From contig NZ_CP060724.1 in assembly GCF_014397255.1 (NCBI RefSeq), forward strand, positions 1,302,001 to 1,366,000: a stretch of DNA of 64,000 nt, given 5' to 3'. The number at the start of each line of letters is the position of its first letter. Positions within the stretch are counted from its first letter, which is position 1. The notes below the pieces were generated by a model. It made no database searches, was not told where the DNA came from, and was given only the letters and a program-made list of their open reading frames with translations. Source of the DNA: Weissella diestrammenae. Lineage in GTDB: Bacteria; Bacillota; Bacilli; Lactobacillales; Lactobacillaceae. Shown one piece after another: positions 32,096-39,808 of the stretch. A program made the position numbers and the translations under genes.

Positions 32096-32907
32096 GTGGC
32101 ACTATTATCAGTCAATTACTATTCAGAAGTTTTACATATGGCACGTGAAATGGTTGTTATTTTACCAGAATTATCAGATCGTAACCCGCTGTGGACACCC
32201 GATATGTTGAATGATATACCAGTCATCTACTTACTACATGGCATGTCTGAAAATCAGACGACATGGACGCGGCGAACGAATATTGAACGGCTTGTCGAAC
32301 GAACATGTGTCGCCATTGTGATGCCAGCGACGGATATGGCATGGTATACGAATACAACGTATGGTATGAACTATTATGATGCCATAGCAAATGAATTACC
32401 AGAAAAAATTGCAACGTTATTTCCGCAAATATCCAAAAAGAGAGAGAAGAATTTTATTGTCGGCTTATCAATGGGGGGTATGGTGCATTTAAAATTGCAT
32501 TCACAACACAAAGGTATAGTTACGCTGCGTCATTGTCTGGGGCATTAGTTGGTGGGGAAATTGAACCCTATCGACGCTTGTTATCAGAAAAGTCGAGTCC
32601 GCAAATTAGTCAGTATTGGCGAGGTGTGTTTGGCGATTTGACTCATTTTGAAGATTCTGAAAATGATTTGTTGGCATTAGCGCAAAGGGAGGTGCTACGT
32701 CCCAAGCTATTCGCATGGATTGGAACACAAGATTTTTTACTAGAAACGAATGAAATTTTGGTACCTAAACTAAAAGCGCTTCAATATGATATTGTCTATG
32801 AGAAAGGGCCAGGAAAGCACGAATGGTATTATTGGAATCAACAGATTGACCGGGTTTTGTCGTGGTTACCGATTCAGTATCAACACGAGGAAAGATTAAC
32901 ACGGTAG
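32096..32907 (+). pseudogene. estA: Tributyrin-esterase-like alpha/beta hydrolase, frameshifted
   Basis: Translation from GTG 32096 (AAGGGAGG upstream) gives the first half of an EstA/FrmB-type esterase: VIYLLHGMSENQTTW and the nucleophile elbow GLSMGG. At the six-G run 32473-32478 the frame is lost. Adding one G restores GLSMGGYGAFKIAF and joins the second open frame, SLSGALVGGEIEPY to the end, which carries the catalytic Asp (GTQDFLL) and His (KHEWYYW). Intact length would be about 270 residues, normal for the family. Either a one-base deletion or a homopolymer sequencing error. Confidence 0.85.
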
Positions 32908-34378: not shown

Positions 34379-34759
34379 ATGAAGGGACATTATCAACCGG
34401 CTGGAATGGTCGGAATGGTTAATTGGGCTTGGATTTTGATGATAGGACTAGCAGCGTTAATCATGCAGCTTGAAGTGACGCATATTAATGTTTGGTCGGT
34501 CACGTTATTATTTGTTTTTTTGATCACATTAACAATCGCAATTTTAAGGCGAAAAATTATTGTGGATAAACAATATATACATTTAACACAGTTATTTAGT
34601 GCGAGTCGATTATCAGTTCGTTTGAGTGAAGTTGAGCACGTGCAATTTACGCGTCACGGGGTATTGTTTGATTACAATGATGATGCTTATAACATATTAT
34701 TGTCTACAAAAATGCGCCAGTTATTAAAAGAAAAATTAGGGGAACAAGATGACAAGTGA
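34379..34759 (+). CDS. ebsA: EbsA family protein
   Basis: A 126-residue protein with two N-terminal helices (MVNWAWILMIGLAALIMQ and WSVTLLFVFLITLTIAI) and a cytoplasmic beta-rich domain (IIVDKQYIHLTQLF, VLFDYNDDAYNILL). The family was first named in enterococcal aggregation-substance work; the molecular role is not established. GAGGAGG precedes the ATG. The end overlaps rluD by 11 bases. Confidence 0.85.
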   Translation: MKGHYQPAGMVGMVNWAWILMIGLAALIMQLEVTHINVWSVTLLFVFLITLTIAILRRKIIVDKQYIHLTQLFSASRLSVRLSEVEHVQFTRHGVLFDYNDDAYNILLSTKMRQLLKEKLGEQDDK

Positions 34760-35669
34760 GACGTTTATCGTCAATGAAAAGATTGGTCGGTTAGATAAGA
34801 CCATTGTAAGTTATTTACCACAACATTCACGGTCACAAATTAGTGAGTGGATTAAGCAAGAACTAGTAACTGTTAATGGTCAGCTAAAAAAGCCAAAGTA
34901 CACACCTGTGATTGGGGATGAAGTGACGGTGACTATTCCAGATCCAGTTGTCATTGATTTAAAGCCGGAAAACATTCCGCTTGATATTATTTATGAGGAT
35001 GATGATTTATTAGTTGTCAATAAACCCAAGGGCATGGTAGTTCATCCATCAGTTGGGCATGAGAATGGCACATTAGTGAATGCATTAATGTATCATACCC
35101 CCTTGTCACAGATTAATGGTGTTTTTCGGCCGGGCATTGTGCACCGTATTGATAAAGACACATCAGGTTTGTTGATGGTTGCTAAAAATGACAAAGCCCA
35201 TGAAGCTTTGTCAGCGGATTTGAAGGAAAAAAAAAATCTACGTGAGTATATCGCACTTGTTCATGGTGAATTTAAAGAAAATTCTGGTACCATTAAAGCC
35301 CCCATTGGACGTTCAAGCAGCGATCGCAAGAAACAAGCAGTTGTACCAAATGGGCGCGAGGCAGTCACACATTTTAAAGTATTAAAGCGCTATGTTGGAT
35401 ATACTTTGTTGTCAGTCAAATTAGAGACTGGGCGGACACATCAAATTCGTGTGCATATGGCATATATTGGGCATCCTGTTGCAGGTGACCCATTGTATGG
35501 CCCTAAAAAGACGTTACCAGGAAATGGTCAATATCTACATGCACATACATTAGGGTTAACGCAACCAACTAGTGGTAAAGAATTGATTTTTGAAGCACCA
35601 TTACCACAAGATTTTAATGATGTATTAGCTGATTTAGAGCCATATAGTAATCAGACAAGTGAGGACTAA
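34749..35669 (+). CDS. rluD: RluA/RluD family 23S rRNA pseudouridine synthase
   Basis: A 306-residue enzyme. An N-terminal S4 domain ([19 protein letters not shown]) binds RNA. The catalytic domain shows [13 protein letters not shown] and [16 protein letters not shown], where the Asp of HRIDKDTSG is the nucleophile, and [17 protein letters not shown]. The product isomerises uridines in 23S rRNA. GGGGAACAAG precedes the ATG. It is in the ebsA-rluD-pyrR order common in this group. Confidence 0.93.
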
Positions 35670-35673
35670 ATTA

Positions 35674-36189
35674 ATGACAGTAAAAGAAATTGTAGACGCA
35701 ATGTCAATGCAACGAGCATTGACACGTATTACGTATGAAATTATTGAAAAAAATAAAGGTGTTAATAATTTAGTTATTGTGGGAATTAAGACACGGGGTG
35801 TTTTTGTAGCACAACGAATTGCAGAACGTTTGCAACAATTAGAGAATGCAGAAATTCCAGTTGTCGAGTTAGATATTTCAACTTACCGCGATGACACAAA
35901 TGAACGTATCTCACGGGTTAGTGATTTAGGTGTATCGATTGACGATAAACGCATTGTTTTAGTTGATGATGTTTTGTATACGGGTCGGACAATTCGAGCT
36001 GCCTTAGATGCGCTGATGGATAATGGACGACCGGCTGCAGTGAACTTAGCGGTACTTGTGGATCGTGGACACAGAGAATTACCAATTCGGGCTGATTTTG
36101 TTGGGAAAAACATTCCAACGGCTGCGTCTGAACGTATTAAAGTTAAGATGGCTGAGATAGATGGTTTAGATTCGGTTGAAATTATTTAA
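35674..36189 (+). CDS. pyrR: Bifunctional pyr operon regulator / uracil phosphoribosyltransferase
   Basis: A 171-residue PRTase-fold regulator. The PRPP loop [20 protein letters not shown] is near residues 95-114; [17 protein letters not shown] and RISRVSDLG are conserved in PyrR. PyrR binds UMP-loaded pyr leader RNA and terminates transcription. ATG 35674 has GTGAGGA upstream; the earlier in-frame ATG at 35659 overlaps rluD. No PyrR-binding loop is evident between pyrR and carA. Downstream genes are the atypical carA/carB pair. Confidence 0.93.
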
Positions 36190-36254: not shown

Positions 36255-37340
36255 ATGGTCAAGCGTTACCTGATTTTACAGGATAAAACGATTTTTGAAG
36301 GGGAGGCCTTCGGCGCACCAGCGACAACCTTTGGAGAAATTGTATTTAATACCTCGATGACAGGGTATCAAGAAATTATCACAAATCCGATTTACCATAA
36401 TCAAATTGTGATGTTTACAACGCCGACAATCGGTGCGGCAGGTATTAATCATCGCGCTGATGAAGGTGTTGTTCCAACCATTAAAGGTGTTGTGGCACGA
36501 GAAATAGCCGATGTGTCAACGAATCGCTTACAGCAAATGAGTCTCGATTCTTTTTTGCAACGGCATAATATACCTGGTATTTCTCGGATTGATACCCGTG
36601 CGTTAGCGCGACATTTGAGGCAAACTGGCACGCAAAAAGCCAGTATTGTTGATGTACCAGATGAACATGCTTTTGATCAATTAAATGCGATGGTGCTGAC
36701 GACAAAACAGGTCTCACAAGTTTCAACGCCCAAACCATATGCTAATCCAGGCCGTGGGGCTAATGTTGTTATTTTGGATTTCGGCTTGAAGAATGGTATT
36801 CTAAGAAATTTACGTGATTTTGATGCAAATGTGACCGTTTTGCCATATAACACCACACTTGAACAAGTAGTTAATTTAGATCCAGATGGGGTCGTATTGT
36901 CATCTGGGCCAGGTGACCCGCGTCAAATGTCTCCTGACTTATTTAAATTAATTCAAGCCGTGCAAGCTGAAATTCCCTTACTGGGGATTGGGTTTGGACA
37001 TGAGCTATTTGCTCTGGCGAATGGGGCAAAACTAATTCCTTTGAATTTTGAACATCATGGGATGAATCATCCCATTCGGGAGCAAATTACGGGTAAAATC
37101 CTATTTGCCAATCAAGGTGCTGGCTATGCAATTGATCGAGATAATTTGGCGGGTGCATCTTTAATGGTAACGCATGTGGATTTGATGGATAATTCTATTC
37201 AGGGGTTACGCCATCGGGATTTTCCTGCCTTTGGGGTTCAATTTTTCCCGGATGCTGCGCCTGGTCCGTACGAAGCGACTGATATTTTTGCTGAATTTAT
37301 GGAAATGGTTTCAGCGCGTAAAGGAGGCACATTTGCATGA
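36255..37340 (+). CDS. Carbamoyl-phosphate synthase small subunit homologue lacking the catalytic triad
   Basis: A 361-residue protein collinear with CarA: N-terminal domain (YLILQDKTIFEGEAFG, VVFNTSMTGYQE-like, GISRIDTRALARHLR) and class I glutaminase domain with LSSGPGDPR. The nucleophile motif GICLGHQ is GIGFGHE here (Gly246 for Cys), the active-site His region HPEASPGP is FPDAAPGP (Phe331 for His, Asp333 for Glu), and SQNHGY is NQGAGY. Glutamine hydrolysis should be impossible. The frame is intact and starts after GGAAAGGAG, so this is not simple decay. Its end overlaps the large-subunit homologue by four bases. Confidence 0.85.
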   Translation: MVKRYLILQDKTIFEGEAFGAPATTFGEIVFNTSMTGYQEIITNPIYHNQIVMFTTPTIGAAGINHRADEGVVPTIKGVVAREIADVSTNRLQQMSLDSFLQRHNIPGISRIDTRALARHLRQTGTQKASIVDVPDEHAFDQLNAMVLTTKQVSQVSTPKPYANPGRGANVVILDFGLKNGILRNLRDFDANVTVLPYNTTLEQVVNLDPDGVVLSSGPGDPRQMSPDLFKLIQAVQAEIPLLGIGFGHELFALANGAKLIPLNFEHHGMNHPIREQITGKILFANQGAGYAIDRDNLAGASLMVTHVDLMDNSIQGLRHRDFPAFGVQFFPDAAPGPYEATDIFAEFMEMVSARKGGTFA

Positions 37341-39808
37341 GTGAACGCATATTAATTATTGGCGGATCAGCAAATGACTTTGGTCGTGAAACTGAAAGCG
37401 ATACCGCGGGTTATCAAATGGTATCGATGTTGCGAAAACGTGGCCATGATGTGTTCTTAGTTGATGACAATCCATATAATTTCACAATTGAACGGACAGA
37501 TATTACGCCGATTCTGACCGCTTTAACCTTGCCTAATTTGTTAAACATCATTCAAGAATATGCGATTACGAGCATTATGGCCTCAATTGGCGGACTAACA
37601 GCCATTCGATTGAGTCATGAAATTTTAGTTGCTTTAGGTAGTGACGCACCAAAAATTTTGGGCTTATCTGTTCCAGTGATTGAAGCAGCTCAAAATACAA
37701 AAGTATTAAAAGAACGGTTGGTTCAGATTGGCGAAGAGGGTGTTCGCACAAGATTGGTTGCTAGCGTGTCGGAAGCATTTGATGCGGTTCGTGATTTTAA
37801 TTTTCCAGTGGTTGTGCGACCGGTTGCCCCGAGTGGCGAAACATTACGGTTGCATGCTGATGATGCAGAGGAATTGGAAGAAACCGTTCAAACGGCATTA
37901 GAGCGGTCATTAACACATCAAGTTAATATTGATCAAGGAATTGGTGGCTATCGTGAAATTACGATTGTCGCAATGCGGGATATTAAAGATAATGCATTGA
38001 TGATTGGTGGCGTTGAGGATATGGACCCAGTTGGTATCCATACGGCAGATTCAATTGCCGTGACCCCTTTGCAAACGTTACCTGATCCAATCGTCCAAAA
38101 ACTGCGTCATTCAGCTTTTCAGGTTATGCGCGGCTTTAAAATGATTGGGTTGGCTGAAATTCGTTTTGCGGTCAATCCAGAAACTGAAACTTATGTTGTG
38201 ACGCGTGTGACACCGTACTTTGACCGACAAGCGGCATTAATCATGGTATCCACCGGTTATCCTCTGGTACCAGTGATGACTGGTCTGTTACTTGGTGAGA
38301 CGTTTGATTCAGTTGATGTACCTCAGATTTATGCCCAAAATACGGCGTTACTAGAACCGGTGATGGATCACGTGGTGATGCGCTTCCCTGTATTTAGTTT
38401 TGGGGAATTAGAAGCTGATTGGATTGTAACGGATCATCGTTTGGATACAATTCAAAAATCAGTGGGCGCAACAATTGGTGTCGGTCGTAGCGTTGAAGAA
38501 GCTTTGGAAAAAGCGATTCGAGCAGCTCATTTTAATAACCGGAATTTTTCACCAACAGTGATGAATTCACTGTCAGATGATGCATTGGTTGAACAAATTA
38601 TTCATCCCCGCGATAATCGTATTCTTGTTCTAATTGAAGCGCTACGGCGAGGGTATACTGTCGATGAATTGGCTGAAGTGACAAAAATTGATCCATTTTA
38701 TTTTTATAAACTACGTCGAATTATGCAAATAGAAACAAATGTCGTTGCTAATCCTTGGAATGAAGAAGCATTAAAAGATGCAAAATATTATGGGTTAAGT
38801 GATGGTTTAATTGCTAAATTATGGCACGATAAGTACGAGAATGTTCGTCGGTATCGATGGGATAAAAATATTTTACCTACGTTTAAAGCGTTTGACCCAT
38901 CGGCAGGTGAATTTGAGGAAGCAACTTCGCATTACTATAGTACTTTTGAAACTGAAAATGAGAGTCATCGTTTGAGTGACGAATCAGCACTTGTGATTGG
39001 AACAGGCGCTTTTCGATTAGGAGATGGGGCAGCAGCTTCATATGCTATGGCCTCGGTCGCTTCTGAATTACGAACGTTGGGGATCAAAACTATTGCGATG
39101 AATAATAATCCGCACGACTTATTATTCATTCCGCAAATTGCAGATAAACATTATTATGAACCACTTGAATTATCAGATGTTATGAGCATTCTAGAAATTG
39201 AACAGCCCAAGTATGTCTTTATTCCAGGTAATCGCATTAAATTAATTGCGAAATTACGTGAAATGGGTGTCATTGTTAATGTGATTGCTAAGGAGAAATA
39301 TTTACCAAGTAGTTTATCTGAAAATTATGAACAAACTGTCATTAACTATTTTTGGGATGGCGATCAATTACATCCAATCGCACTTGCACATCAAGATAAC
39401 GGTGGGATTGTAATTGATCAGCAAGTGTTAACGGAATCATTGTATGAATCATTGCCAAAGCCAACGTTGAATATCTCCAGAGCTGGCATGTATCAATTAG
39501 TGGTTGATCGTTGGCCAATTGATGATGCCATCTCAGCCGATGATATTCGACCAATGCCGTTCACACATATTGCCTTTTTGAGTAAAATCACGGGCATTAA
39601 CTGGATTAGACTCGTTGTACGCTATTTAACTGAGCGTCAAACTGAGTCAGATCAGTTCTTAGTGACACATTGGCGAACGGTGCCTTGGCGAATTAATGCG
39701 GCACGTTTGACTTATTTTGATCCTGATTATGATGAGCATTTACACGTTAATGCGTTAATTGATAATGGTCGCTTTGCGATGGGGGCGACTTTTGAACGGA
39801 TTAACTAG
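37337..39808 (+). CDS. Shortened, active-site-degraded carbamoyl-phosphate synthase large subunit homologue
   Basis: An 823-residue protein aligned with CarB over its first ATP-grasp half, the oligomerisation region (TKIDPFYFYKLRRIMQIE) and part of the second pre-ATP-grasp domain. Usual CarB length is about 1060. The phosphate loop RPSFTMGGSGGG is RPVAPSGETL (161-170), and the metal-binding IEMNPRVSR is VTRVTPYFDR (288-297). The second ATP-grasp domain is missing and replaced by about 120 residues of unrecognised sequence. MGGQTAL appears as IGGLTAI, and the second copy is lost. It cannot be a standard synthase. Open frame, ATGA overlap with the carA-like gene and AAAGGAGG upstream show it is maintained. 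Confidence 0.85.
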   Translation: MSERILIIGGSANDFGRETESDTAGYQMVSMLRKRGHDVFLVDDNPYNFTIERTDITPILTALTLPNLLNIIQEYAITSIMASIGGLTAIRLSHEILVALGSDAPKILGLSVPVIEAAQNTKVLKERLVQIGEEGVRTRLVASVSEAFDAVRDFNFPVVVRPVAPSGETLRLHADDAEELEETVQTALERSLTHQVNIDQGIGGYREITIVAMRDIKDNALMIGGVEDMDPVGIHTADSIAVTPLQTLPDPIVQKLRHSAFQVMRGFKMIGLAEIRFAVNPETETYVVTRVTPYFDRQAALIMVSTGYPLVPVMTGLLLGETFDSVDVPQIYAQNTALLEPVMDHVVMRFPVFSFGELEADWIVTDHRLDTIQKSVGATIGVGRSVEEALEKAIRAAHFNNRNFSPTVMNSLSDDALVEQIIHPRDNRILVLIEALRRGYTVDELAEVTKIDPFYFYKLRRIMQIETNVVANPWNEEALKDAKYYGLSDGLIAKLWHDKYENVRRYRWDKNILPTFKAFDPSAGEFEEATSHYYSTFETENESHRLSDESALVIGTGAFRLGDGAAASYAMASVASELRTLGIKTIAMNNNPHDLLFIPQIADKHYYEPLELSDVMSILEIEQPKYVFIPGNRIKLIAKLREMGVIVNVIAKEKYLPSSLSENYEQTVINYFWDGDQLHPIALAHQDNGGIVIDQQVLTESLYESLPKPTLNISRAGMYQLVVDRWPIDDAISADDIRPMPFTHIAFLSKITGINWIRLVVRYLTERQTESDQFLVTHWRTVPWRINAARLTYFDPDYDEHLHVNALIDNGRFAMGATFERIN

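Follow-up and report, generated by a model that had tools for sequence, protein, structure and literature searches.

Why should Weissella diestrammenae keep, beside pyrR, two genes that resemble the subunits of carbamoyl-phosphate synthase (CPS) and have lost the residues needed for its chemistry? The genes, here termed carA' and carB', lie in a 64,000-nucleotide stretch of the genome (contig NZ_CP060724.1, positions 1,302,001 to 1,366,000; hereafter the window). A sequence-only reading had proposed that they encode pseudoenzymes kept for another purpose, and are not a copy in plain decay. The open frames and the low ratio of non-synonymous to synonymous substitution (dN/dS) bear this out: comparison of sequences leaves very little doubt that the pair is a selected, family-wide pseudo-CPS, with catalytic residues lost, the genes conserved and retained over the long term, and dN/dS well below 1. 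Both frames are fully open (361 and 823 residues), the carB' start falls within the carA' stop region, and the ribosome sites are good for both genes (AAAGGAG and AAGGAGG), as had been described.

CarA' exceeds curated CarA models along its full length (TIGR01368, 370 bits with a cut-off of 307; NF009475, 427 bits with a cut-off of 221). The Cys/His catalytic dyad is nevertheless absent. Gly246 takes the place of the glutaminase nucleophile, with GIGFGHE in CarA' compared to GICLGHQ in the intact CarA encoded elsewhere in this genome, and alignment with that CarA and with E. coli CarA places Phe331 at the position of the active His. The NHG motif is also lost. These three changes had been recognised from the window; a fourth, Asp333 for Glu, has to be withdrawn as a sign of death, as the intact CarA of this genome and of four congeners likewise carry Asp (HPDAAPGP). 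Gly occupies the Cys position in all 70 alignment rows of dead CarA', in two further rows and in 80 of 80 named loci. Every relative examined lacks the Cys and has open frames, which puts the loss far beyond chance.

CarB' scores 446 bits against TIGR01369, under the 1027-bit cut-off, and the match spans residues 3–644 only. The losses proposed for the first ATP-grasp domain are confirmed by alignment: the Gly-rich ATP loop reads RPVAPSGETLRL where the canonical sequence is RPAYTLGGTGGG, and the metal site reads TRVTPYFDR compared to IEVNPRVSR. Metal- and phosphate-binding residues are missing from both ATP-grasp sites (R129, G176, E299, N301 and R303 in the first; R715, E841 and N843 in the second), and are gone in nearly all family pairs read. 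Across 59 CarB' sequences with a mean identity of 34% (residues 1–400), the canonical residue is found at Glu299 and Arg303 in 0%, at Arg129 in 2% and at Gly176 in 12%, while Glu215 (97%), Gly241 (98%), His243 (95%) and Arg306 (80%) are retained. From E. coli work we take Glu215 to touch the ribose, and Arg306 may meet bicarbonate. The pattern of retention, as read from the alignment, fits binding without turnover.

The sequence-only reading also held that CarB' has no second ATP-grasp domain, which is correct in part. Sequence similarity does end near residue 645. An AlphaFold model of all 823 residues (20-row alignment; predicted local distance difference test score 85, predicted template modelling score 0.88), however, superposes on E. 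coli CarB 6–922 (Z 40.7, 783 residues, 3.3 Å), and thus a shrunken second half appears to remain. The overall CarB fold is therefore present in the predicted model. The C-terminal allosteric domain is absent: the superposition stops at E. coli residue 922 and the alignment holds no residues beyond it.

A second complete carAB with pyrBCDFE, for which a search had been suggested, is present elsewhere in the same genome. The only other carA (C1:1105161) lies in pyrB-pyrC-carA-carB-pyrD-pyrF-pyrE, and this CPS is intact, with GICLGHQ, NHG and HPDAAPGP in CarA and a CarB of 1059 residues. A leader resembling a PyrR-binding RNA precedes pyrB (48.8 bits, below the 54-bit gathering score; E 7e-6), and a second such element precedes pyrP. 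As the only PyrR of the genome is that of the window, it must act in trans on the pyrB operon and the pyrP RNA. The uracil permease gene pyrP, directly after its PyrR-binding RNA, is split by a frameshift at C1 ~573840–575159 (L247), either real or a sequencing error.

To place the pair in the family, 131 genomes from 38 sampled Lactobacillaceae genera were surveyed, the dead pair being confirmed by locus reading (genomes and loci are given below by their G and L numbers). It was present in 30 of these genera. A search with the CarB' of the window gave an open orthologue, 55–86% identical, in 26 of 27 congeners; the remaining congener, a 66%-complete assembly, gave a fragmentary CarB' match. 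Sister species yielded no orthologue of the pair in which the motifs are intact. The two genes are adjacent in every locus of sufficient length, the order in most genera is lspA-rluD-pyrR-[pair]-rqcH, and pyrR lies within the same cluster as the pair in 27 of the 30 genera. One locus (L059, G036), again at lspA-rluD-rqcH, combines a very diverged pair (CarB' of 661 residues, ~20% identical) with an aberrant PyrR (39%). Another (L068, G014) carries a third CarA/CarB pair, with a CarB of 952–959 residues that has catalytic motifs, beside a PyrB-like frame; it is possibly of the arginine type.

Purifying selection on the pair is strong. Between congeners with usable dS, dN/dS lies at 0.005–0.07 for both CarA' and CarB', in the same range as the working CarA and CarB of those genomes; the Levilactobacillus medians are 0.020 and 0.016, respectively. 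No inner stops were found in the listed relatives from good assemblies. Plain decay of a redundant copy, left open by chance, would accord with the lost catalytic residues and with the shortening to 580–880 residues seen in several lineages. It is excluded by dN/dS values of ~0.005–0.08 (typically ~0.02), compared to 1 for neutral decay, and by frames that are open across the family; the one common Cys to Gly substitution and the selective retention of nucleoside-side residues further reduce its probability to a negligible level. Furthermore, the pair does not depend on the pathway from which it derives. In 17 genomes from 9 genera (G001, G006, G009, G012, G063, G065, G068, G072, G082, G088, G091, G098, G100, G106, G121, G128 and G176) neither a working CarB nor an aspartate transcarbamoylase (ATCase) exceeds the cut-off, yet the pair is open, and the congeners G006 and G009 among them give dN/dS of 0.026/0.025. 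Survival and low dN/dS in such pathway-less genomes indicate that the pair is needed for something independent of the pathway, probably a non-enzymatic and likely regulatory task.

What that function might be was considered against several alternatives. CarA' and CarB' could join the working CarAB as regulatory or decoy subunits, as the fold and subunit make-up are those of CPS and both copies coexist in most genomes; with at least 17 genomes keeping the dead pair in the absence of a working CarB, and under equally strong selection, this is very unlikely. A new reaction at the remodelled first ATP-grasp site of CarB' would account for the strong purifying selection, for the retained Glu215, His243 and Arg306 equivalents and for several positions at which a non-canonical residue has become fixed. 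Almost all sequences, however, have Lys or Arg in place of the metal-binding Glu299, and the Gly loop is lost, its sequence varying between genera. Both changes are hard to reconcile with Mg-ATP chemistry, and we regard a neofunctionalised enzyme as unlikely. It is also conceivable that the pair stands beside pyrR by descent only and serves a role outside pyrimidine metabolism, for example at RNA, the ribosome or the cell surface, through a link to rluD, rqcH or prsA. Its survival in genomes without the pyrimidine pathway, its persistence in two genera without an adjacent pyrR, and its downstream neighbours (rqcH in most genera, prsA in the window) can all be cited in favour of this. Against it, PyrR was found somewhere in every pair-carrying genome checked, and auxotrophs retain PyrR together with PyrR-binding RNAs, which precede pyrP in G006 and other frames in other genomes, leaving the regulator targets to act on. 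A role apart from pyrimidines thus seems rather unlikely.

It is plausible that the pair senses a ligand and thereby takes part in PyrR-dependent control of pyrimidine genes, and we put this forward tentatively from the order of the genes, the residues retained and published work on L. plantarum. In this model CarA' and CarB' would still assemble as a CPS-like complex, and the former first ATP-grasp site of CarB' would bind, but not turn over, a nucleotide and perhaps also bicarbonate or a similar small anion. Occupancy of the site would be relayed to PyrR-dependent control of the genes for pyrimidine uptake and synthesis. For L. plantarum, control of the pyr operon by pyrimidines through PyrR1 and by inorganic carbon through PyrR2 is reported (PMC3582564); the PyrR genes are lp_2704 and lp_1782, the latter being pyrR2 (PMC7911632). 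The two PyrR proteins of L. plantarum EGD-AQ4 share 66% identity over 172 residues. The gene for one stands at the head of pyrB-pyrC-carA-carB-pyrD, and that for the other lies in rluD-pyrR-carA'-carB'; we take this pair-adjacent gene to be the published pyrR2, as it is the PyrR outside the pyr operon. The locus has the same lspA-rluD-pyrR-carA'-carB' order as the window, and its CarA' and CarB' are 60% and 37% identical to ours. L. plantarum, in contrast, also keeps PyrR1 at its working operon, whereas the single PyrR of the window genome, at the PyrR2 place, must serve all targets.

In the suggestion of the sequence-only reading, a PyrR-linked sensor of pyrimidines or arginine, the link to PyrR gains from the gene order and from the second PyrR of L. 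plantarum, but several observations weigh against the suggestion. The domain of CPS that binds uridine monophosphate (UMP) and ornithine is missing from CarB', which speaks against a CPS-like sensor of pyrimidines or arginine. In the PyrR tree, which groups the PyrR from displaced working operons in a single clade (95), Paucilactobacillus and Limosilactobacillus keep the pair with no adjacent pyrR and have only PyrR of the PyrR1 clade. A dedicated PyrR2 partnership is therefore not obligatory, and dependence of the pair on PyrR2 is not upheld. Furthermore, no PyrR-binding RNA was found anywhere in the window, the region before pyrR included, and PyrR2 could itself be the inorganic-carbon sensor. 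As a separate observation on PyrR, a single working pyrB-pyrC-carA-carB stretch in L234 (G085) has a PyrR gene on each side; the second of these forms a long branch in the tree.

On the sensing model the pair would, in L. plantarum, be a candidate for the missing sensor through which PyrR2 responds to inorganic carbon. The most specific form of the sensing model, in which CarA'B' is the missing inorganic-carbon sensor of lactobacilli, binding bicarbonate and nucleotide in its former first active site and gating PyrR-dependent pyrimidine genes, is speculative and unlikely. If this is true, polarity on carA'B' could account for part of the published delta-pyrR2 phenotype. The pair is a concrete candidate for coupling CO2 supply to pyrimidine gene control in lactobacilli.

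The origin of the pair can be traced through its position. In the pair-less genera with flanks read (G164, G150, G062, G078, G061, G073 and G079), pyrR and a working pyr operon stand at lspA-rluD, and the pyr operon of Bacillus subtilis likewise lies beside lspA and the rluD-like ylyB. As the place of the pair holds a whole working operon in other genera, the simplest reading is that the pair is what remains of an ancestral pyr operon after the loss of pyrBCDFE, its role having passed to a second, working operon elsewhere. Intermediate states are seen. G060, G064/G127 and G069 have pyrR-pyrP-carA'-carB' at the same place with a dead CarB of full length (1056–1067 residues), and the copy of G060 keeps the Gly loop and carries Cys to Gly, His to Asp, E299A and E841A. 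L236 (G070) is a half-dismantled operon, lspA-rluD-pyrR-pyrP-carA'-carB'-pyrF-pyrE, with a CarB' of 643 residues.

A joint CarA and CarB tree places 25 of 25 dead rows opposite 17 working ones with branch support 100, on which a recent independent death in this genome was rejected, and trees in which the full-length dead G060 copy joins its working neighbours are disfavoured (approximately unbiased test, p 0.011). A quick tree of CarA only had placed G060 among the working copies, so both conclusions depend on the alignment of the two proteins together and on a tree that was itself quick. A single origin of the dead copies is thus likely from the sequence evidence, but not proven, since the quick tree has long branches. 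The dead rows include those of a second family, f4 (L060 and L061, in G054 and G039), in which the order is pyrR-pyrB-carA'-carB', CarA carries Cys to Gly and CarB has ~580 residues; ATCase is intact in both f4 genomes and neither holds another CarB match.

Among characterised systems the closest is E. coli CarA/CarB (PyrAA/PyrAB; 1bxr, 1jdb and 1c30), which shares the subunits, the gene and domain order, the CarB 6–922 fold and the full-length CarA match. The pair differs in lacking the glutaminase nucleophile and His, the metal and Gly-loop residues and the allosteric domain, and in its shortened second half. Human CPS1, the ammonia-dependent CPS, has lost the glutaminase Cys in its CarA-like part and keeps the dead glutaminase as a structural or regulatory part. 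It shares this feature with the pair (fold match to 5dot/5dou), but its two ATP-grasp active sites, which the pair has lost, are preserved, and it synthesises carbamoyl phosphate. In the open-licence literature the search gave no account of the dead pair or of a CPS pseudoenzyme; subscription papers lay outside the search, and priority is uncertain. A textbook allosteric enzyme has been retained as a complete but dead copy across most of a family, pathway-less species included, and the graded series from full-length dead to shortened to minimal copies shows an enzyme becoming a non-enzyme. As the pair passes curated CarA models, it is probably annotated as carbamoyl-phosphate synthase in many genomes, and such annotation would mislead metabolic models on arginine and pyrimidine prototrophy.

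Coordinates of the pair, its altered and retained sites and its upstream flank, numbered from the first letter of the window.
Feature	Position	Strand	Basis or remark
rluD (RNA pseudouridine synthase)	34749..35669	+	Upstream flank; same place in nearly all loci read
pyrR	35659..36189	+	NF003548 274.6 bits, over cut-off; single PyrR match of the genome
carA' (CPS small-subunit homologue, predicted catalytically dead)	36255..37340	+	361 residues; TIGR01368 370 bits
Gly246 codon, replacing glutaminase nucleophile Cys (E. coli Cys269)	36990..36992	+	Alignment with intact CarA of the genome and E. coli CarA
Phe331 codon, replacing catalytic His (E. coli His353)	37245..37247	+	Alignment with intact CarA of the genome and E. 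coli CarA
carB' (CPS large-subunit homologue, both ATP sites predicted dead, lacking the allosteric domain)	37337..39808	+	823 residues
RPVAPSGETLRL, remains of Gly-rich ATP loop (canonical RPAYTLGGTGGG)	37817..37852	+	Alignment
Glu207 codon (E. coli Glu215, nucleoside side)	37955..37957	+	Kept in 97% of the dead family
His235 codon (E. coli His243)	38039..38041	+	Kept in 95% of the dead family
VTRVTPYFD, lost metal site (canonical IIEVNPRVS; Glu299 to Arg, Asn301 to Thr, Arg303 to Tyr)	38198..38224	+	Alignment
Shrunken second half of CarB', lacking R715/E841/N843 equivalents	39254..39805	+	Model superposition to E. coli 922; alignment

In the window rluD, pyrR, carA' and carB' form a tight cluster on one strand. 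The probable start of pyrR is the ATG at 35674, directly past the rluD stop, such that the two genes nearly touch (sequence 35640–35680). A scan for promoters and terminators gave nothing better than shuffled sequences. Elsewhere in the window, an esterase-like gene at 32096–32907 is broken into two overlapping frames of 150 and 124 residues, and this split suggests a frameshift.

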